This document shows positions 1,025 to 43,636 of a DNA stretch of 57,513 nucleotides, piece after piece (positions within the stretch are counted from its first letter, which is position 1; every line of letters begins with the position of its first letter). Both the position numbers and the translations under genes were made by a program. The DNA is from Ruminococcus sp. (GTDB lineage Bacteria > Bacillota > Clostridia > Oscillospirales > Acutalibacteraceae), in contig JAFQNJ010000035.1 of assembly GCA_017395925.1 (NCBI GenBank), forward strand, positions 1 through 57,513, given 5' to 3'. The notes below the pieces were generated by a model that was given only the letters and a program-made list of their open reading frames with translations, did no database searches and was not told the origin of the DNA.

Positions 1025-1060
1025 TGATTTCACCTCCGTTAATTTATAACGCAGTTCATA

Positions 1061-1190
1061 AAAAGAGCCTCTTCACAAAGGAAGAGGCGGGAAATACAAA
1101 ATAAATTTGTAAATGCTTCTTCCTCGGCAGGTAAGGCATAAGCCTGTTACGCATAAATGCACCTGCTGTCTTTAGAACAGCGATTTTATA
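1061..1190 (-). ncRNA. L10 leader (ribosomal protein autoregulatory RNA)
   Basis: The 5' UTR of rplJ-rplL carries the hallmark L10-leader elements on the minus strand: GACAGCAGGTG (1160-1170) and, after a stem, CCTGCCGAGGAAG around 1118-1132. A hairpin AGCCTCTTC/GAAGAGGC with a T-run (about 1061-1090) follows and looks like the attenuator. In Firmicutes this RNA binds the L10-L12 complex and reduces expression of the pair. The motif match is clear by eye; exact boundaries are approximate. Confidence 0.88.
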
Positions 1191-1239
1191 TATTCATCTG
1201 CAAAGCAGTGAATAACCTGTTTTTCCGCAAAAGCGGAGA

Positions 1240-35399: not shown

Positions 35400-35431
35400 A
35401 ATATATATAATAATTTACAAGGGTGAATTTT

Positions 35432-36712
35432 ATGAAAAAAGTTTTTTCGTTAATCCTTGCTCTGCTCACCTTGGTGAGTATGACAACTTTTGCAACTTCC
35501 ACCGTTCTGGCGGCTGAGGAGGACTTCTTTATCAAGCCGCTCACAGACACCACAGCCGAGATTACAGGCTATGCAGGCGACGGCGGCAATGTCATCATCC
35601 CCGACACCATCGGCGGTTACACCATTACAAGAATCGGCGACCAGGCATTCTATCAGAACAAGAATCTCAAGAACGTCACCCTTCCCGAAGGTGTTACCGA
35701 AATCGGCTTCAAGGCATTTGCAGGTGCTTTCATTACCGGAATCAAAATGTCCGACAATGTCACCACTCTGGGCAACAATGCCTTTTCCTACTGCATTAAC
35801 CTTACCGATGTTGCTCTCTCCAAAAACATCAAAGTCATCCCCAACAATGCATTCTCCTTCTGCACACGTCTTGAGAGCATCACCATTCCCGAGGGTGTTG
35901 AGGATATCGACATCAGCGCCTTCCAGTCCTGCTACCATCTGGTGAATGTAAACCTCCCCAACAGCCTCAACACTGTGGGCGAATACGCCTTTGCATACAC
36001 CGCCATCAAGAACCTCACCCTCCCCGAGGGTCTTGAGGAAATCAAGAGTCAGGCATTCTTTATGTGCGAGAAGATGGAGTCTGCCATTATCCCCTCCACA
36101 GTCAAGACCATCGGCAAGTGGGCATTCGGCAGCTGCTTTGCCCTGACAGACCTTATTATTCGTGACGGCGTAGAGATAATCGAGGCTTATGCCTTTGACT
36201 CCTCCCCCATTGCCGTTGTGGAGATTCCCTCTTCCGTTTATGAAATCGGCGAGTATGCTCTTGGCTACTACTATGTAGAGGAAGACTTCAGCTACTATAA
36301 ATACGAGGATTTTGAGATTATCTGCGAAGAAGGCTCTGCCGCCGCAATGTATGCAGCAAACAACGATATGACCTTCAGCAAGCCCGGCGAGGACAATCCC
36401 ACAAACCCCACAGAGCCTGACGACACAAAGCCTTCAGAGCCTGACGACACAAAGCCTTCAGAGCCTGACGAAACAGACCCCTCTGCTCCCACCGACACAG
36501 AGCCCTCTTCCCCCGAGGACGACTTCAAGCAGGGCGACGTCAATATGGACGGCAATGTGAACATCAAGGATGCCACCGCGATTCAGAAGCATCTGGTTGA
36601 CCTGATTAAGCTTAACGAAAAAGCTCTTGAGCTTGCCGAGTTTGACGGGGACAACAAGATTACTGTCCGTGATGCCACAGCAATTCAGAAGCACATCGCA
36701 GGCCTTGCCTGA
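35432..36712 (+). CDS. Secreted LRR (BspA-type) protein with dockerin
   Basis: 426 residues. Signal peptide (MKKVFSLILALLTLVSMTTF), about nine LRR_5 repeats (LPEGVTEIGFKAF, IPSTVKTIGKWAFGSC and so on) to about 290, an acidic Thr/Pro linker with DDTKPSEP repeated, and a C-terminal dockerin. The two dockerin repeats are GDVNMDGNVNIKDATAIQKH and FDGDNKITVRDATAIQKHIA. AAGGGTG precedes ATG 35432; a GTG at 35423 overlaps it. A shorter relative of the gene at 16257, with its own promoter and terminator. Confidence 0.92.
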   Translation: MKKVFSLILALLTLVSMTTFATSTVLAAEEDFFIKPLTDTTAEITGYAGDGGNVIIPDTIGGYTITRIGDQAFYQNKNLKNVTLPEGVTEIGFKAFAGAFITGIKMSDNVTTLGNNAFSYCINLTDVALSKNIKVIPNNAFSFCTRLESITIPEGVEDIDISAFQSCYHLVNVNLPNSLNTVGEYAFAYTAIKNLTLPEGLEEIKSQAFFMCEKMESAIIPSTVKTIGKWAFGSCFALTDLIIRDGVEIIEAYAFDSSPIAVVEIPSSVYEIGEYALGYYYVEEDFSYYKYEDFEIICEEGSAAAMYAANNDMTFSKPGEDNPTNPTEPDDTKPSEPDDTKPSEPDETDPSAPTDTEPSSPEDDFKQGDVNMDGNVNIKDATAIQKHLVDLIKLNEKALELAEFDGDNKITVRDATAIQKHIAGLA

Positions 36713-36767: not shown

Positions 36768-36787
36768 ATTAGCAGAAAACCAATCAA

Positions 36788-36843
36788 AAACCCCACCGAG
36801 ACAGACCGCACGTTCGCCTCGGTGGGGTTTAATCTATGCTTTT
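36788..36843 (-). terminator. Terminator of dockerin operon 1 (shared with operon 2)
   Basis: Strong stem AACCCCACCGAG / CTCGGTGGGGTT with T-run on the minus strand. The segment CAGACCGCACGTTCGCCTCG and its right flank through TTTAATCTATGCTTTT recur almost unchanged at 41047-41087. Confidence 0.85.
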
Positions 36844-36866
36844 TTTGGAGAATGGAAAATTCACAT

Positions 36867-37046
36867 TTATCCGAAATAAGGAAACACCCCTGATGAATAC
36901 TTCTGAATTGCAGTTGCATCGTGGATGTTCAGGGTATAGTCAAGGTTAGCATTTCCTGTTTTTTCATGCCTTGCCGTTGCAACCACCGAGAAAGCACAAG
37001 ATAAGGTCATAATACACACAAGAGTTAATGCTAATATCTTTTTCAT
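36867..37046 (-). CDS. Tiny secreted single-repeat dockerin-like protein (59 aa)
   Basis: Read from the minus strand: signal peptide MKKILALTLVCIMTLSCAFS, cleavage near VVATA, then about 30 mature residues with one dockerin half-repeat, NANLDYTLNIHDATAIQKYS. AGGAG is 6 nt upstream of ATG 37046. It starts 22 nt after the preceding dockerin gene, so it is the third gene of that operon. It could be a remnant of a larger dockerin protein, but signal, ribosome binding site and reading frame are intact. Confidence 0.75.
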   Translation of the reverse strand: MKKILALTLVCIMTLSCAFSVVATARHEKTGNANLDYTLNIHDATAIQKYSSGVFPYFG

Positions 37047-37067
37047 AATTATCTCCTATTCATAATT

Positions 37068-37682
37068 TTACGCAGGTAAAACATATTCATCAAGATTTAC
37101 GTATTTCAAATCAAAATTTGCTCTGTAATCCAATGCTTTTAATGCTTCTAATAAGTTCTCTTTGCCCGGCTCCTGTAAATACAGCATATAATAAGTGCGC
37201 TTGGAATAACTCAACTCTGTTTTTTCGATTCTGCTGAAATTCAACTCAGGGAAATCCGCCAGCGTATAGTCATAATCTGCATTCTTGGGAGTGATGACAA
37301 GGTATCTTCCTTCGAAGAGTGCATTCAATGTTTTTCCTTGCGAAAATTTATCCGTATATGTCATCTTTACAACTTCATCCACCGAAGAGGCTGTGTCAAG
37401 CCCTGCCAGATGCTTCTGAATGGCGGTGGCATTACGTACCGAGAAGCCCTCGCCCTCTGTATCGGCAAGATATCTCTGAACCGCAGTAAGGTAAACTACC
37501 TCTGCCACACCCTTCTGCACCAATGTGGCATCGCGGACGGTAACCTCGCCGTCCATATCCACATCGCCGTAGATAAACTCCTCTGGCGGTGTATATGTGC
37601 TCTCGGCTGATGCACCTGTCGCCACAAACGATGAACCTGTTATCATCAACAGTGCGATTAGTACACATAATATCTTTTTCAC
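37068..37682 (-). CDS. Secreted dockerin protein with I9-propeptide-like domain (copy B)
   Basis: 204 residues: signal peptide (MKKILCVLIALLMITGSSFV), then an N-terminal dockerin (GDVDMDGEVTVRDATLVQKG; RYLADTEGEGFSVRNATAIQ), then a ~95-residue C-terminal domain with YLVITPKNADYDYTLADFPE and KENLLEALKALDYR. The last part resembles the peptidase inhibitor I9/subtilase propeptide pattern. GTG 37682 has GGGGG 7 nt upstream. Tandem paralogue of the next gene; the dockerin-coding DNA is nearly identical. Confidence 0.85.
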   Translation of the reverse strand: MKKILCVLIALLMITGSSFVATGASAESTYTPPEEFIYGDVDMDGEVTVRDATLVQKGVAEVVYLTAVQRYLADTEGEGFSVRNATAIQKHLAGLDTASSVDEVVKMTYTDKFSQGKTLNALFEGRYLVITPKNADYDYTLADFPELNFSRIEKTELSYSKRTYYMLYLQEPGKENLLEALKALDYRANFDLKYVNLDEYVLPA

Positions 37683-38240
37683 AATGCTACCCCCTCATTT
37701 AATCAATGTTCGGTAAATATATAGTTAGGTTCAACACTTTTTATATCCAGATTAGCCCTATAATCCAGGACTTCTATTGCCTTCAGCACATTTTCTCTTG
37801 TAGGTTCTCGGAGATATAGGCAATAAACAAGAAAATTTCTGTCTACGGAACCTATAGATGTTATTTTATCAAATTCAAACTCCGGGAAATCCTCAAGTGT
37901 ATATTCAAATTCAAGGTGTTTTGAGATAACCATAATCAGACTATCATCAAAATCCGCGTCTTCAGGTACATTGCTTGAAAACTTATCCGTATATGTCATC
38001 TTTACAACCTCATCCACCGAGGAGGCTGTGTCAAGCCCTGCCAGATGCTTCTGAATGGCGGTGGCATTACGCACCGAAAAGCCCTCGCCCTCTGTATCGG
38101 CAAGATATCTCTGCACCGCAGTAAGGTAAACTACCTCTGCCACACCCTTCTGCACCAATGTGGCATCGCGGACGGTAACCTCCCCGTCCATATCCACGTC
38201 GCCGTAGATAAACTCCTCGGGGGGTGTATATGTGCTCTCG
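37378..38240. repeat. Direct duplication of dockerin-coding segments
   Basis: About 220 bp encoding the dockerin and part of the signal peptide of copies B (37378-37600) and A (37999-38236) differ at only a few positions, while their flanking C-terminal domains have diverged widely. This points to recent tandem duplication or gene conversion restricted to the dockerin segment. Confidence 0.8.
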
Positions 38241-38323
38241 GCTGATGCACCAAACACGCACACACTCGCCATCATAACGGATATAATCAGAATAAACGAA
38301 ATAATCTTAAAATACTGTTTCAT
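37703..38323 (-). CDS. Secreted dockerin protein with I9-propeptide-like domain (copy A)
   Basis: 206 residues: signal peptide, N-terminal dockerin almost identical to copy B (GDVDMDGEVTVRDATLVQKG), then a diverged C-terminal domain: LIMVISKHLEFEYTLEDFPE, then ENVLKAIEVLDYR, ending KSVEPNYIFTEH. The VEPNY ending is typical of I9/subtilisin-propeptide folds. First gene of dockerin operon 1; AGGAGG upstream of the ATG. Such domains inhibit or chaperone subtilases, but no protease is fused here, so the role is inferred only. Confidence 0.85.
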   Translation of the reverse strand: MKQYFKIISFILIISVMMASVCVFGASAESTYTPPEEFIYGDVDMDGEVTVRDATLVQKGVAEVVYLTAVQRYLADTEGEGFSVRNATAIQKHLAGLDTASSVDEVVKMTYTDKFSSNVPEDADFDDSLIMVISKHLEFEYTLEDFPEFEFDKITSIGSVDRNFLVYCLYLREPTRENVLKAIEVLDYRANLDIKSVEPNYIFTEH

Positions 38324-38369
38324 AAAAACTCCTCCTGAATAGTGTTGATGATTTGCTTCTTAATACCCA

Positions 38370-38487
38370 TGGGTATCGCCGCTTTCTTTTATGTTTTGCC
38401 TACGTTTTTGCAAGTAAACACATAATTATTGTGAATATTTACCATATCTTCATTTTTAGTATATCATCACACAAAAGTACTTGTCAA
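38370..38487 (-). promoter_or_regulatory. Promoter and conserved leader of dockerin operon 1
   Basis: Minus strand: TTGACA (38482-38487), 18-nt spacer, TATACT (38458-38463), then a ~100-nt untranslated leader. The leader contains GTAGGCAAAACATAAAAGAA, GCGGCGATACC and the palindrome ACCCATGGGT (about 38370-38400). The same promoter-leader block occurs before dockerin operon 2 (43450-43573). No known riboswitch class is recognised in it. Confidence 0.75.
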
Positions 38488-38596
38488 GAATATTTTGTTT
38501 ATCATAATATATATTTACACTCCTCATACTGTTCATCGTCAAAAACGAAATACAGAAAAGCGAAATGTACTGTACCTCCTGTTTGCATCACACACA

Positions 38597-38628
38597 AAAA
38601 GGCACACTCCATATCGGGAGTGTGCCTC
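38597..38628 (-). terminator. Terminator of the EF-G-like gene
   Basis: AGGCACACTCC / GGAGTGTGCCT stem followed by TTTTTG on the minus strand, 52 nt after the stop. Confidence 0.85.
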
Positions 38629-38679
38629 TTGATTTATGCCCAAATTTCAAACAAATCTTAAGCAATATTAATTTTTAAA

Positions 38680-40749
38680 TCAGTCCTCGGCATCCTGCTT
38701 TGCCTGCTCGATAACCTTCTGGGCAATGTTTGCAGGTGCGTCCTCGTAGCGGACAAACTCAAAGGTGTATGTACCTCTACCCTGGGTAGCCTGACGGATG
38801 AAGGTGTTGAAGTCGTGCATCTCTGCCATGGGAACCTCAGCCTCGATAACCTGCATTCCGTCCTCGTCGGTATCCATACCGAGGATTCTGCCGCGGCGCT
38901 TGTTGACCTCACCCATAATGTCGCCCATGTGAGCATCGGAGACGGTGGCTCTCAGTGTGCCGTAGGGCTCAAGGAGTGTGGGGTTGGCAAGTGCCATACC
39001 GTTCTTGTATGCGATTTTTGCCGCCATCTTGAATGCCATTTCGTTGGAGTCAACGGGATGGTAGGAGCCGTCATAGAGGGTAGCCTTCAGACCGACAACG
39101 GGATATCCTGCCAGAGGACCCTTGTTGATAGCTTCAAGGAGACCCTTCTCAACTGCGGGGAAGAAGTTCTTGGGGACGGAGCCGCCCACAACTCTCTCGC
39201 CGAACTCCAGACCTGCTGCACCGCAGGGCTCGAACTCGATCCAAACGTCACCGAACTGGCCTGCACCGCCGGACTGCTTCTTGTGTCTGCCCTGAACCTG
39301 AACTCTCTTGCGGATAGCTTCTCTGTATGCAACCTTGGGAACCTGAAGTGTAACCTCAACGTTGAACTTTGACTTGAGCTTTGCCACTACAACCTCAAGA
39401 TGCTGGTCGCCCAGACCTGTGATAACCATTTCCTTGGTTTCCTTGTCGGACGTGAACTTGAGGGAGGGGTCTTCCTCCAGAAGTCTTGCAATACCCTGAG
39501 CAACCTTATCCTCTTCACCCTTCTTCTTGGGGTACACAGCCATCTTGTGGGTTGCGTGGGGATAACGGATACCGCTGAGGGTCAGTTTGCGCTGGGGTGC
39601 GCAGAGAGTGTCGCCTGTCTGTGCCTGTGAAAGCTTGGGAATGGCACCGATGTCGCCTGCGCCGATGTATGCGGCATCCTCCTGCTTCTTGCCCTTGACG
39701 AAGAGAACCTTGGAAATTCTCTCGCTCTCGCCTGTACGCATATTGACAAGGGGAGCATCGGGAGATACTTTACCCGAGATAACCTTGAAGTATGAAAGTT
39801 TTCCGACAAAGGGGTCGGCAACTGTCTTGAAGATAATTGCGGCTGTGGGGTCAGCCTCGTTAACCTTAACGGTAACCTTCTCGCCCGACTCGGTTTCGGC
39901 AACCTCCTCTGTACCATCTGCTGCTGTGGGAGCAATGGCGCAGATAAGGTCCATCATCTGGGGAATACCGTCAAGAGTGATGGCATCGGCACAAACTACG
40001 GGATAAACAGAAGAATTCTGCACGGCTGTCTTCACACCGCGGAGCATCTCCTCGGGAGTGAAATCCTCGCCGCCGAAGTACTTCTCCATAAGCTCCTCGT
40101 CGGTTTCGGCAACAACTTCCTTGAGGGCATCAAGGTACTCGTCATAGTAATCAAACTCGGGAAGTGCAACCTCAGTTGCCTTGCCCTGAGCGTATTTATA
40201 AGCCTTGCCGTTGAGGATATCAATGTAGCACTCTGCCTTGCCGCCCTTCACAACGGGAACGAAAACAGGGCAGACCTTGTTGCCGAAGGTATCCTTGAGG
40301 GTGCCGATAATGCTTGAGTAGAAGTCAACGCTCTCGTCACAGAGACCGTTTACGATGAACATTCTGGGAAGTCCGCGTCTTCTGGCGTAGATGAAAGCCT
40401 TCTCGGTACCGACGCCGCAGCCGTGCTTTGCAGAAACAACAACGCCTGCAATATCAGCCGCACGCATACCCTCAGCCTCGCCTGCCTTGAAGTCGAACAG
40501 ACCGGGAGTATCCATAACATTAAGCTTCTTGCCACTCCATTCAACGGGAGCAATAGCAATAGAAATAGATGCCTTTCTCTTTATTTCCTCGGGGTCGAAG
40601 TCCATCACGGTATTGCCGTCGGCAACCTTACCCAGACGGTCGCTTCCGCCCGATACATAAATCATAGCCTCGGCAAGAGAGGTCATACCGGAGGAGCCTC
40701 TGCCTGCAAGAGCGATGTTGATAATCTCTTGTGCTTTGTACTGTTTCAA
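38680..40749 (-). CDS. Elongation factor G-like protein with degenerate GTPase site
   Basis: 689 residues with full EF-G architecture: G domain, domain II (about 290-390), III, IV (QGRHKKQSGGAGQFGDVWIE), V (EPYGTLRATVSDAHMGDIMG). The G domain departs from consensus: the P-loop reads GRGSSGMTS, so the lysine is Met22; the hydrolysis histidine of DTPGH is Leu84 (DTPGLFDF); and NKxD is NGLCD (134-138). TTG 40749 lies 9 nt after AAGGAG. It is probably an FusA2-type paralogue, with the housekeeping fusA elsewhere. GTP binding may be altered or lost. Confidence 0.88.
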   Translation of the reverse strand: MKQYKAQEIINIALAGRGSSGMTSLAEAMIYVSGGSDRLGKVADGNTVMDFDPEEIKRKASISIAIAPVEWSGKKLNVMDTPGLFDFKAGEAEGMRAADIAGVVVSAKHGCGVGTEKAFIYARRRGLPRMFIVNGLCDESVDFYSSIIGTLKDTFGNKVCPVFVPVVKGGKAECYIDILNGKAYKYAQGKATEVALPEFDYYDEYLDALKEVVAETDEELMEKYFGGEDFTPEEMLRGVKTAVQNSSVYPVVCADAITLDGIPQMMDLICAIAPTAADGTEEVAETESGEKVTVKVNEADPTAAIIFKTVADPFVGKLSYFKVISGKVSPDAPLVNMRTGESERISKVLFVKGKKQEDAAYIGAGDIGAIPKLSQAQTGDTLCAPQRKLTLSGIRYPHATHKMAVYPKKKGEEDKVAQGIARLLEEDPSLKFTSDKETKEMVITGLGDQHLEVVVAKLKSKFNVEVTLQVPKVAYREAIRKRVQVQGRHKKQSGGAGQFGDVWIEFEPCGAAGLEFGERVVGGSVPKNFFPAVEKGLLEAINKGPLAGYPVVGLKATLYDGSYHPVDSNEMAFKMAAKIAYKNGMALANPTLLEPYGTLRATVSDAHMGDIMGEVNKRRGRILGMDTDEDGMQVIEAEVPMAEMHDFNTFIRQATQGRGTYTFEFVRYEDAPANIAQKVIEQAKQDAED

Positions 40750-40831
40750 AATGTTTATCTCCTTTCGGGCTCACACGCGTGAGCGGGTAAACTGTTTAGC
40801 GATTTCGCATAATAAAATCGACTACCCTTAA

Positions 40832-40860
40832 ATTATATCAAAGCGAAATTCATAACACAA
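40832..40860 (-). promoter_or_regulatory. Promoter of the EF-G-like gene
   Basis: Minus strand: TTGTGT (40855-40860), 17-nt spacer, TATAAT (40832-40837), 83 nt upstream of the start. The rest of the gap to 41030 is AT-rich and shows nothing I can name. Confidence 0.6.
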
Positions 40861-41032
40861 CAAAAAAATGGCATTGTACCCAAAAATCAACTTCTTACCC
40901 AATTAGAAGTCCAAATATTTGTGCATATTGCATAATAGTTATTATAGTTATGTGAATTATTTAACAGTTCATTACAATTATATTTCCCGATAGGAAATTT
41001 ATGCACACCTTGCGATTTCCCGCCCCCCAAAA

Positions 41033-41087
41033 AAAATCCACCGAAGCAGACCGCACGTCCGCCTCGGTGGGGTTTAATCTATGCTTT
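41033..41087 (-). terminator. Terminator of dockerin operon 2
   Basis: ATCCACCGA / TCGGTGGGGT stem with a T-run on the minus strand. About 40 bp of it match the terminator of dockerin operon 1 at 36803-36843. Confidence 0.8.
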
Positions 41088-41130
41088 TATTTCAGATTTG
41101 CTTTTTGTGGATAATGAAACTTATCTCAAA

Positions 41131-41805
41131 TTAATACTCAAGTCCTGCGATATATTTCTGAATCGCGGTGGCGTCCTTAATGTTTATTATATAATCCAGA
41201 TTCATATCTATAACGTAGTGATAAAGTTCCCCATTCAAATAATTATTATAAACTTTATCCAGACCGGCTATTTTCTTCTGAAGCAAAGTCACGTCCTTTA
41301 TATTCAATTCGCCGTTGAAATCAACATCACCGCGCAGTCCAACTTGAACAGGGCTCCGCTGTGTCATTGCATTGAGTCCGGGCACCATTTCTTCGGGATA
41401 TTTTTCATAGGCTTCTCTGATGTGAAGCACTTCGTCCGTAGAGGAAACATATACATATATACGGGGCGCCCTAGGATAGGTATACTGATAATCAAAAAAC
41501 ACATAGTCACCTATTATACGAAGAAATATCGCAGGTTCTCCGTAATAATCAGGAGATGGCTCTACTATAATATAATCCGGAACGATTTCATCTGAACTGG
41601 CTACTTCTGTATAATGCACATACAATTCTTTGTAAGTATTAAACCCCATTTCAGGACCGTTTGGAGATAATCTGTCACAACATTCTTTAAATCGAGGACT
41701 ATAAAACTCATTTGAATAGAGGTTGCCTTCTTCCGTTACTGCGGAGACACTCACTACTCCCAAAAGCATCATCAGCGCAATGGTAAAGCATAATATCTTC
41801 TTCAT
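41131..41805 (-). CDS. Secreted dockerin protein with conserved ~90-aa domain (copy 3)
   Basis: 224 residues. Signal peptide MKKILCFTIALMMLLGVVSV; variable N-terminal segment; then a domain with PDYIIVEPSPDY, IIGDYVFFDY, IYVYVSSTDEVLHIREAYEK and PEEMVPGL. A C-terminal dockerin follows (RGDVDFNGELNIKDVTLLQK; DMNLDYIINIKDATAIQK). ATG 41805 is preceded by GAGGTGAT. Last gene of dockerin operon 2; its signal peptide is nearly identical to that of the gene upstream. Confidence 0.87.
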   Translation of the reverse strand: MKKILCFTIALMMLLGVVSVSAVTEEGNLYSNEFYSPRFKECCDRLSPNGPEMGFNTYKELYVHYTEVASSDEIVPDYIIVEPSPDYYGEPAIFLRIIGDYVFFDYQYTYPRAPRIYVYVSSTDEVLHIREAYEKYPEEMVPGLNAMTQRSPVQVGLRGDVDFNGELNIKDVTLLQKKIAGLDKVYNNYLNGELYHYVIDMNLDYIINIKDATAIQKYIAGLEY

Positions 41806-41819
41806 AATTATCACCTCAT

Positions 41820-42770
41820 TAAACCGATTTCATAAATAATACAAATGAGTTCGGCAAAATATCTCAAATTAATGCTCAAGTCCTGCAAATTTGAAAAGCA
41901 GCAACGCTATCATTCATAGTGATTATATTTAGAATAACCACTACCTTCTATGAAAGGAAGACCCGCTATTTTTTTCTGGATAGCAGTGGCATCCTTGATA
42001 TTTATGTAATGGTCCACATTGAAATCAATCATAACACTATAAAGATAACCGTCCATTTCCTTTGGGTGCTCGTACATATATTCCAACCCTGCAAGTCTCT
42101 TCTGAAAGATAGTTACATCTTTGATATCCAGTTTGCCGTTGCAATCCATATCTCCTCTTCTGCCTATCTGCCAGTATCCCTCCTCCACAAGAGCCGCAAG
42201 TCCCAAGTCTATTTCCTCGGGATACAGTTCAAACGCTTCGTGTAAGGTATATACTTCTTCATCCTTAGGAACATAGACGGTAAGTCCGTAGGGATACGGA
42301 TACTCAATTCCGGGTACATAAATAATATAGTTTCCCATAATACAACAGTGTAGCATTGGCAATTCCTGCCAACCGGGTAAGGGATTTATAATTACATAGT
42401 CGGGAGTTGCCGAAGGATTCGAGGCTTCGTCAGGGGTGGAATAATGACGGTAAAGTTCTTGGTACTTTTTATACTGAGGTATACTACCAGGTGGTTCTGG
42501 AGGATTTTTCTCAATTAGTCTTTCAATATAAGCAGTAAATCGAGGCTGATAGAATTCATTTGAATAGAGGTTGCCTTCTTCCGTTACTGCGGAGACACTC
42601 ACTACTCCCAGAAGCATAATCAACGCAATGGTAAAACATAATATCTTTTTCATAATATCACCTCATTAAACCGATTTCATAAATAATACAAATGAGTTCG
42701 GCAAAATATCTCAAATTAATACTCCAGTCCTGCGATATATTTCTGAATCGCGGTGGCATCCTTTACATTG
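41820..42770. repeat. Repeated intergenic and dockerin blocks within operon 2
   Basis: The block AAACCGATTTCATAAATAAT with its following ~45 bp occurs at 41820-41885 and 42668-42730. The latter part, from ATCTCAAATTAATACTC into the dockerin end, also occurs at 41114-41170. This shows the operon grew by tandem duplication of a whole gene plus spacer. Confidence 0.8.
41910..42653 (-). CDS. Secreted dockerin protein with conserved ~90-aa domain (copy 2)
   Basis: 247 residues. Signal peptide MKKILCFTIALIMLLGVVSV; the shared domain reads PDYVIINPLPGW, IMGNYIIYVP, LTVYVPKDEEVYTLHEAFEL, PEEIDLGLAAL. The dockerin repeats are GDMDCNGKLDIKDVTIFQKR and DFNVDHYINIKDATAIQKK. The C-terminus is 12 residues longer than in its paralogues. 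Just beyond its stop (41866-41885) lies a leftover AGLEH-stop fragment of another dockerin end, a scar of recombination. Confidence 0.87.
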   Translation of the reverse strand: MKKILCFTIALIMLLGVVSVSAVTEEGNLYSNEFYQPRFTAYIERLIEKNPPEPPGSIPQYKKYQELYRHYSTPDEASNPSATPDYVIINPLPGWQELPMLHCCIMGNYIIYVPGIEYPYPYGLTVYVPKDEEVYTLHEAFELYPEEIDLGLAALVEEGYWQIGRRGDMDCNGKLDIKDVTIFQKRLAGLEYMYEHPKEMDGYLYSVMIDFNVDHYINIKDATAIQKKIAGLPFIEGSGYSKYNHYE

Positions 42771-43390
42771 CGCTCGCCGTCACGGTTGAAGTCGGAGACA
42801 TAACCCTTTTGCTTGCCGTTATAGCAGTATGTGTCACAGGGAACTTCCTCTGTGCCCAAAAGACCTGCAACCCGCTTCTGAATTTCGGTGGCATCCTTGA
42901 TGTTTATCTCGTTGTCTCCATTGGCATCACCGATGCGTCTTCCGATGTTTTCTTCATATTCGGTGAAGACCGCCTCTATTCCTTCCACAGGCAAATCCCA
43001 AGCCTCGCGGAGTGTATAGAGCTTATCTTCTCCCGGCAGGTAGATGTGCAGTCCCAGATGATATGGCTCAAAGATTGAGTAGGAAAAGAACACGTAATCG
43101 CCGAAAATATCGCCTTCGCATACAGTGGGGGTGAGCCCTGCAGATGCGGCAAACACAAGAACGTAATCGGGAGTTGCCGATGGCTCTTCTTCAGAATTGC
43201 TGTACTCAAACAACTCATAGTATATAGGTTCAGGATAGCCTTCAATTTCAATTCCCAACCTCGGGACAATAGAATCTCGGTATTTTTCCTCTCTGGGTAC
43301 GTGGATATCAAATGCCGAAACTGACATCACCCCTGCTGCAATCAACGCTATTGCCAGAACTACTGATATAATTTTTCTTGCGGGTTTCAT
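42716..43390 (-). CDS. Secreted dockerin protein with conserved ~90-aa domain (copy 1)
   Basis: 224 residues. Signal peptide MKPARKIISVVLAIALIAAG; shared domain PDYVLVFAASAG, IFGDYVFFSY, LHIYLPGEDKLYTLREAWDL; dockerin GDANGDNEINIKDATEIQKR and DFNRDGERNVKDATAIQKY. AAGGAGG precedes the ATG. First gene of dockerin operon 2, under a promoter/leader shared with operon 1. The domain between signal and dockerin is not one I recognise. Confidence 0.87.
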   Translation of the reverse strand: MKPARKIISVVLAIALIAAGVMSVSAFDIHVPREEKYRDSIVPRLGIEIEGYPEPIYYELFEYSNSEEEPSATPDYVLVFAASAGLTPTVCEGDIFGDYVFFSYSIFEPYHLGLHIYLPGEDKLYTLREAWDLPVEGIEAVFTEYEENIGRRIGDANGDNEINIKDATEIQKRVAGLLGTEEVPCDTYCYNGKQKGYVSDFNRDGERNVKDATAIQKYIAGLEY

Positions 43391-43449
43391 AACAAAGCCT
43401 CCTTAAAATCAATAAACTAACAAATATTTAGAACGCGAATAAATGTAAT

Positions 43450-43573
43450 TACCCATGGGTATCGCCGCTTTCTTTCATGTTTTGCCTACATTTTCGCAAG
43501 CAAACACATATTTGTTGTGAATAATTACCATTATTCTCATTTTCAGTATATCATCGGCTGAATTGCATGTCAA
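43450..43573 (-). promoter_or_regulatory. Promoter and conserved leader of dockerin operon 2
   Basis: Minus strand: TTGACA (43568-43573), 17-nt spacer, TATACT (43545-43550), followed by a leader with GTAGGCAAAACATGAAAGAA, GCGGCGATACC and ACCCATGGGT. It matches the block at 38370-38487. Conservation extends past the promoter through the leader, implying more than shared sigma-factor use. Confidence 0.75.
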
Positions 43574-43636
43574 GAATATTTTGTTTTTCACAATATTGAT
43601 AAAATCCCAATATTATCACAGCCAACGACAGAAAAA

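Follow-up and report, generated by a model that had tools for sequence, protein, structure and literature searches.

We analyzed a 57,513-nucleotide (nt) stretch of a Ruminococcus sp. draft genome (assembly GCA_017395925.1, contig JAFQNJ010000035.1; hereafter the window), in which two minus-strand operons of small dockerin genes lie on either side of a gene for an EF-G-like protein. We propose that these operons are shared-end cassettes for small, predicted secreted dockerin proteins that would dock on a scaffold, that their variable domains, termed cargo in the following, are predicted to block subtilases, and that these domains were likely exchanged by recombination. We consider this explanation probable, though far from certain.

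Shared ends and differing interiors

Operon 2 (43390-41131), the EF-G-like gene (40749-38680) and operon 1 (38323-36867) follow each other in transcription order on the minus strand (Table 1). A preliminary description of this DNA had placed the operons on either side of the EF-G-like gene and noted that they have a promoter, a leader of about 100 nt and terminator DNA in common, and these observations held. BLAST aligned the promoter-leader segments 38364-38510 and 43450-43596 with 86% identity over 147 nt (E 3.6e-42), i.e., far past the promoter hexamers, and the terminators 36786-36851 and 41031-41096 are 88% identical over 66 nt. Direct repeats in the promoter-leader pair 38364-38445 with 43450-43531 (91% over 82 nt) and 38475-38510 with 43561-43596 (86%). 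In a blastn comparison of the whole operons (E 1e-5), matches were confined to the promoter-leader (85.8% in 148 columns), the terminator (90.2% in 61 nt) and a single 26-nt piece; the direct-repeat search added two matches of 42-50 nt and 74% identity between signal-peptide starts. Sharing ends at a ATACCCATGGGTA block, and the following 40 nt (operon 1) or 59 nt (operon 2), including the ribosome-binding site, are unlike. With matches limited to the ends and short pieces, the mature domains differ, as had also been described.

The same description took the operons for duplicates of one complete cassette. This applies to the ends; operons 1 and 2 are not copies of each other, because operon 1 has a full copy on another contig of the assembly (C1) and genes 2 and 3 of operon 2 have their relatives on contig C16. 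On C1, genes 1 and 2, the 59-residue remnant gene 3 and the terminator recur, and operon 1 aligns with this copy from end to end (1717 columns, 88.8%). Operon 3 on C16 starts with a dockerin-bearing subtilase and the relatives of operon 2 genes 2 and 3; next come a terminator whose 3' arm is missing, an extra gene of the operon 2 type (op2-type) and an intact terminator. Each of the four operons (1, 2, 3 and the C1 copy) is followed by a terminator. Since the end of C1 and the start of C16 are identical over 72 nt inside a glutamine-synthetase-like gene (named by eye), the C1 and C16 cassettes probably flank this gene, as operons 2 and 1 flank the EF-G-like gene.

A genome-wide leader search in the draft (1.54 Mb, 71 contigs, 75% complete) found two more full leaders (C16:470-630 and C1:4806-4936) and two relatives with the promoter only (C5:5307 and C16:34937), which precede two more op2-type dockerin genes. 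The draft genome holds four full promoter-leader cassettes. All four full leaders precede genes with dockerin repeats, the dockerin-bearing subtilase on C16 among them, and none was found in front of unrelated genes. The C5 copy (L005:1501-1731) keeps the promoter, followed by another leader, some 160 nt long, for which Rfam gave no match, and by a gene with two op2 domains. Of the eight loci with an op1 or op2 domain in this genome, six have the promoter, and five of six distinct sites of the promoter pattern lead op1-type, op2-type or subtilase-dockerin genes. At the sixth site (C67), the first part of the gene is without dockerin; the promoter alone is not dockerin-specific. A contig scan with operon 2 gene 1 as query found no relative.

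Dockerins occur at 55 places and cohesins at seven in this genome (E <= 0.01); five of the cohesins score above cut-off and five lie on contig C8. There (L079), cohesin proteins, some with starch-binding-like repeats and membrane-spanning ends (by eye), form a cluster that we read as a scaffold locus.

In the cassettes, dockerin repeats are plain by eye in five genes, i.e., genes 1 and 2 of operon 1 and genes 1-3 of operon 2. Inspected in this way, each of the five encodes a signal peptide, a dockerin and one more domain; the op2-type domain was aligned in all three genes of operon 2. The Dockerin_1 profile exceeded the Pfam cut-off in operon 2 gene 1 (28.2 bits) and stayed below it in operon 1 genes 1 and 2 and operon 2 genes 2 and 3 (E 0.0012 to 0.026; operon 1 gene 1, 19.4 bits with a cut-off of 22.9). 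Three dockerin genes per operon had been described, which fits all but the third gene of operon 1. It encodes 59 residues with a single repeat, had no match in the Pfam scan and is likely a remnant. Genes 1 and 2 of operon 1 share 45% amino acid identity after residues 96-98. The start of operon 2 gene 3 is ATG at 41805 or, alternatively, GTG at 41814.

Table 1 Features of the two dockerin cassettes and the gene between them, in transcription order.
Feature	Position	Strand	Basis
Operon 2 promoter, TTGACA / 17-nt spacer / TATACT	43545..43573	-	Sequence; pattern match 43541-43573
Operon 2 shared leader, 3' end is the 12-nt palindrome TACCCATGGGTA	43450..43544	-	Repeat and BLAST comparison
Operon 2 gene 1, 224 residues: signal peptide (by eye), op2-type domain and, at the C-terminus, dockerin	42716..43390	-	
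Operon 2 gene 2, 247 residues: op2-type domain and dockerin	41910..42653	-	Dockerin_1 below cut-off; domain alignment
Operon 2 gene 3: op2-type domain and dockerin	41131..41805	-	Dockerin_1 below cut-off; domain alignment
Operon 2 terminator DNA, common to operon 1	41031..41096	-	88% over 66 nt
EF-G-like gene, 689 residues, between the cassettes, member of neither	38680..40749	-	Pfam EF-G domains; NCBIfam NF009381, 835 bits
Operon 1 promoter, TTGACA / 18-nt spacer / TATACT	38458..38487	-	Sequence; pattern match
Operon 1 shared leader	38364..38457	-	Repeat and BLAST comparison
Operon 1 gene 1: signal peptide (by eye) and dockerin, then a C-terminal domain like the subtilase propeptide (residues ~117-206)	37703..38323	-	
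Dockerin block of operon 1 gene 1, ending at the cargo boundary	37977..38251	-	96% over 275 nt with gene 2 block 37342-37616
Operon 1 gene 2: architecture of gene 1, other cargo	37068..37682	-	Sequence, Pfam, pair comparison
Operon 1 gene 3, 59 residues: signal peptide and one dockerin repeat (by eye), likely a remnant	36867..37046	-	59-residue frame also in C1 copy
Operon 1 terminator DNA, common to operon 2	36786..36851	-	Direct-repeat comparison

Cargo domains and subtilases

From profile comparisons, we conclude that the cargo of the operon 1 type (op1-type) is homologous to the subtilase propeptide. When compared with the propeptides of the subtilases that adjoin op1-type genes in related genomes, it reached 93.3% in hhalign, whereas 100 column shuffles of that set did not exceed 3.6%; other sets gave 94.8% and 94.7%, and 96.2% when the propeptide of L162 was added. 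With hmmsearch, the relation was found at E 9e-5 and 2e-4, compared with 0.059 for the best of 1000 shuffles. Of six loci found by scanning genomes with the alignment of op1 cargo, one was the propeptide of a subtilase from uncultured Bacilli (L162, 31% identity). The match was specific, i.e., the propeptides of a second subtilase class (class II) gave 0.1% in hhalign.

Neither Pfam nor NCBIfam places op1 cargo in a named family. Pfam Inhibitor_I9 (PF05922) had no match in op1 genes at E 0.1 and none in the five paired subtilases (two at E 0.5, three at E 0.05), and five op1 and op2 proteins had no NCBIfam match at E 0.01. A search of the sequences of solved structures with op1 cargo gave nothing better than E 0.097. 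Solved I9-type subtilase propeptides are beta-alpha-beta-beta-alpha-beta sandwiches. The predicted model of op1 cargo (residues 111-200, predicted local distance difference test score, pLDDT, 77-88) shows a strand, a three-residue helix, two strands, a helix and a strand, i.e., an alpha-beta sandwich. A fold search with this model gave generic ferredoxin-like matches only; no subtilase propeptide was among the 50 entries listed, which excludes nothing.

In relatives, op1-type genes directly adjoin dockerin-bearing subtilases at 5 of 15 loci, with gaps of 24 nt (genome G010), 6 nt (G067), 18 nt (G106), 28 nt (G104) and 161 nt (G091); this range of 6-161 nt holds across the 14 subtilase-paired loci measured. 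The dockerins of all five op1-paired subtilases score above the Pfam cut-off, and each of these enzymes has its own propeptide. Among the matches listed (23, 150 and 150 rows, the latter two from longer lists; some subtilase genes fill two rows), op1-type genes lay on the same strand within 5 kb of 5 of 17 subtilase rows, with 0.07 expected, and op1-type or op2-type genes beside 16 of 52, with 0.58 expected. Expected values assume random placement and were computed from rounded genome sizes, or 1.9 Mb where no size was given; the 16 pairs include one repeat (G099:C8 and G067:C55). These two contigs (L154 and L155) have the same open reading frame (ORF) lengths and translations, possibly due to cross-binning or recent transfer. 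One operon in G010 combines genes of the op2 type and the op1 type with a papain-like dockerin protease (Peptidase_C1 just below cut-off) at its head and a subtilase at its end.

Subtilase propeptides are intramolecular chaperones as well as inhibitors. The propeptide-like proteins could hence be foldases that mature the dockerin subtilases in trans, instead of or in addition to inhibiting them, and their genes directly adjoin subtilases at the five loci. However, the paired subtilases already have a propeptide of their own, and op1-type genes also occur in genomes without any S8 match (G103 and G090) or with the other subtilase class only (G000, the genome studied here), these genomes being 75-90% complete. 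We regard a foldase role as unlikely. Like SPI-1 of Arabidopsis (see below), op1-type proteins most probably bind subtilases and block them.

The op2-type domain is found in 74 of 161 genus genomes at E 1e-5. In genomes that hold it, op2-type genes lay beside 12 of the 48 subtilase rows listed (same strand, 5 kb; 0.51 expected), and 12 of the 113 op2-type loci listed had a subtilase within 5 kb. The adjoining enzymes are mostly of class II, which has a different propeptide; among six class II subtilases scanned, the dockerin was above the Pfam cut-off in three, below it in two and without a match in one. Propeptide identity of op2 cargo was not supported by sequence, as hhalign gave 0.1% and 0.5% with class I and class II, respectively. 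Nor was there support for a class II propeptide beside the op2 domain in P0018-P0022 (hhalign 0.2%, shuffle maximum 6.3%, and no hmmsearch match to these five). A fold search with op2 cargo had dockerins as best matches (E 0.18 and 0.37), the rest being unconvincing and the model too weak to read. A 353-residue op2-type protein that is not a subtilase (L126, G158:C4) gave a weak match (E 3e-4) to the profile of class II propeptides. At the position that we take to be the catalytic aspartate of class II subtilases, three of five sequences inspected by eye (L027:672-3221, L147, L149, L150 and L153) have Glu (GVVE, GMVE, GLFE) and two Asp (GMVD); judged from these residues, class II activity may be altered.

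Synonymous divergence of frame and cargo

The preliminary description had likened the cassette to an expression slot that receives varying dockerin cargo. This view is supported by a step in synonymous divergence (dS) within operon 1 gene 1. In the comparison with gene 1 of the C1 copy, 8.0 changes fall on the 80.5 synonymous sites of its signal-dockerin part (116 codons; dS 0.11) and 35.8 on the 54.5 of its cargo (90 codons; dS 1.56; p 1.8e-11 for the step). With the boundary moved from residue 116 to 98, the step was 0.11 vs 0.99. Gene 2 and its C1 counterpart, taken as control, had no step (0.13 vs 0.19, p 0.46). Between genes 1 and 2 within operon 1, the dockerin parts have no amino acid difference in 68 codons and the cargo is saturated; such within-operon pairs were stepped in operon 1 (p 9e-13) and in the C1 copy (p 9e-11).

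The step test covered nine gene pairs, five of them from relatives. A script placed the boundary at a DKF motif or at residue 110, which in G091 is close to where the signal region ends. In G103, the pair a/b was stepped (0.17 vs 1.06, p 6e-7). A gene on contig C33 of G091 matches one C32 gene in its signal region (dS 0.19) and the other C32 gene in the remainder (dS 0.07), i.e., it is a chimera, which accounts for two of the five pairs from relatives; the C32 genes themselves (G091C32a/b) had no step (p 0.65). The pair G098a/b gave 0.66 vs saturated, where the first gene has no match to the op1 domain, so that the cargo comparison means little. In P0011, from another contig, a signal peptide of the gene 1 type is combined with cargo of the gene 2 type.

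Alternatively, whole operons might have been duplicated and the cargo then changed faster under selection, without exchange. The end-to-end alignment of operon 1 with its C1 copy would fit, as would the even divergence of gene 2 along its length. Yet selection on the protein does not lift dS from 0.11 to 1.56 within one gene, although strong synonymous constraint may act on the dockerin part. Moreover, the cargo dN/dS of 0.23 argues against fast protein change alone, and the chimeric genes P0011 and in G091 also speak against duplication without exchange, which we hold to be improbable. Since copying plus selection predicts even synonymous change and a step was observed, we favor exchange of cargo behind a constant frame; judged from the sequences compared, op1-type cargo was likely exchanged by recombination.

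This does not extend unchanged to the op2 type. In the six pairs formed by genes 2 and 3 of operons 2 and 3, the first 33 residues are 94-100% identical (dS 0.26-0.59), the cargo has 35-58% identity (dS 0.83 to saturated), and the dockerin has diverged too (48-72%). As far as these alignments tell, the constant dockerin frame is confined to the op1 type and the op2 type keeps the signal region alone, which limits the slot reading. A further limit is that the slot acts at the domain level as well as at the operon level. P0005, P0017, P0025 and P0029 probably represent one relative that holds op1-type and op2-type genes on one contig.

Leader, known inhibitors and proposed role

The leader of about 95 nt is kept in four copies. 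If it were a regulatory RNA, i.e., a riboswitch or attenuator, the regulon would be built around the leader and cargo exchange would be secondary. The operon 2 stretch 43440-43528 indeed folds better than its shuffles (z -2.29; 5 of 200 shuffles as good). However, scores elsewhere were weak (z -1.56 for a longer operon 2 stretch, 0.15 and -1.37 for operon 1 stretches), no Rfam family fits the leader, an RNAalifold consensus of the four leaders had compensating changes in 0 of 14 pairs, and two of the copies have, by eye, a disturbed hairpin. We give a regulatory RNA little credence; a DNA operator at TACCCATGGGTA is possible. The sole Rfam match at the gathering threshold in the window is a ribosomal protein L10 leader (1052-1193, minus strand, 71.3 bits).

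An eight-codon frame in the leader is readable including its stop in all four copies, with an ATG start in three and CTG in one, and an 18-residue frame is readable in three of the four. No clear ribosome-binding site was seen by eye for these frames, which have too few changes to be judged. The leader may thus be an operator, encode a short leader peptide, or merely be a shared relic. At E 1e-4 it was found in 1 of 161 genus genomes, i.e., only its own. A looser search in 59 genomes gave one 33-nt match in G019 (E 2e-4); by eye, the ORFs listed for that stretch had no dockerin repeats, and the match was dropped. In other species, too (L148, L151 and L134), tandem op-type genes have repeated upstream leaders and signal peptides in front of them (VYKYQRRLIMKK, LSADKRL..GDFMKK, MFMKKILCITMVL), so that frame duplication may be general.

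That the cassettes are mobile elements with the conserved ends as termini is very improbable: common ends, differing interiors and a position between housekeeping genes would suit such elements, but the ends are in direct, not inverted, order and resemble an ordinary promoter and terminator, and no transposase or recombinase was seen by eye among the interior ORFs. Convergent to operon 1 lies a gene for a BspA-type leucine-rich-repeat protein with a C-terminal dockerin (35423-36712, plus strand), in which a 24-nt tandem repeat encodes a DDTKPSEP-like linker.

Yeast IB2 and POIA1 are stand-alone subtilase propeptide inhibitors, and the dockerin-bearing inhibitors of Clostridium cellulovorans have the papain propeptide fold (family I29). 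SPI-1 of Arabidopsis is a free propeptide-like protein that inhibits subtilases (PMC11371169). The op1-type proteins resemble it as free propeptide-like proteins, with inhibition predicted here; they differ in being bacterial and dockerin-bearing, in lying in recombining operon cassettes and in having no Pfam I9 match. Dockerin serpins are known from C. thermocellum (PinA), Ruminococcus flavefaciens and R. albus, and PinA is described as inhibiting subtilisin-like proteases (PMC5301203, PMC12484212). They, too, are secreted protease inhibitors held on the scaffold by a dockerin, but have the serpin fold instead of a propeptide-like domain of about 90 residues, and the portions of these papers that were consulted mention no cassette structure. 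In C. cellulovorans, secreted proteases and inhibitors co-accumulate (PMC6547498, PMC12484212), and its dockerin inhibitors act on plant cysteine proteases (PMC6547498). Dpi, the dockerin-containing protease inhibitor of C. cellulolyticum, is reported to protect cellulases from proteolysis (PMC6547498, PMC12484212). Inhibitors of both species are cellulosomal like those proposed here, but those of C. cellulovorans are directed at cysteine proteases, in contrast to the subtilase-propeptide relation found here. Scaffold-bound dockerin peptidases of the S8 and papain-like types are known in cellulosomes (PMC12484212), as is a papain-like module in R. flavefaciens (PMC3573020); here, such peptidases share operons with small dockerin proteins. 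Among the papers that our literature search listed, with most subscription journals outside it, none dealt with a dockerin protein with a subtilase-propeptide-like inhibitor or with cargo exchange behind dockerin frames. Dockerin-borne protease inhibitors are already known, as dockerin serpins, cysteine-protease inhibitors and Dpi have been published.

In the explanation that we favor, op1-type cargo would act as a free propeptide that occupies a subtilase's active site. Bound through its dockerin to cohesins of the same genome, the inhibitor would lie beside the enzymes to be protected, or restrain a docked protease. Op2-type cargo might, with less support, do the same to class II subtilases or to other proteases. 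With promoter and leader in common, all cassettes would be under one control, and cargo would be replaced or added where near-identical frame parts and terminators recombine; addition is suggested by operon 3, where a broken terminator followed by an extra gene looks like a scar. Where no partner subtilase was seen (the genome studied here and two relatives, all incomplete), foreign proteases would be the targets of the inhibitors. Some op1-type inhibitors likely have such foreign targets, because their genes occur without an S8 gene in G103 and G090, or with the other class only in the genome studied here. Going further, we tentatively suggest that gut Ruminococcus might keep an interchangeable inhibitor rack, in which the frame would be homogenised by gene conversion and inhibitor domains swapped against competitor, plant or host proteases, similar to polymorphic toxins or variable surface proteins; this may well not hold.

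Enzymes on a scaffold face a protease-rich gut, and how their complexes are guarded is poorly known. The dockerin subtilase with its neighbouring propeptide-like dockerin protein would be a concrete, predicted protease-inhibitor pairing. If the explanation is true, the cassettes represent a simple genetic design for inhibitor renewal and could provide small dockable subtilase inhibitors for designer scaffolds.

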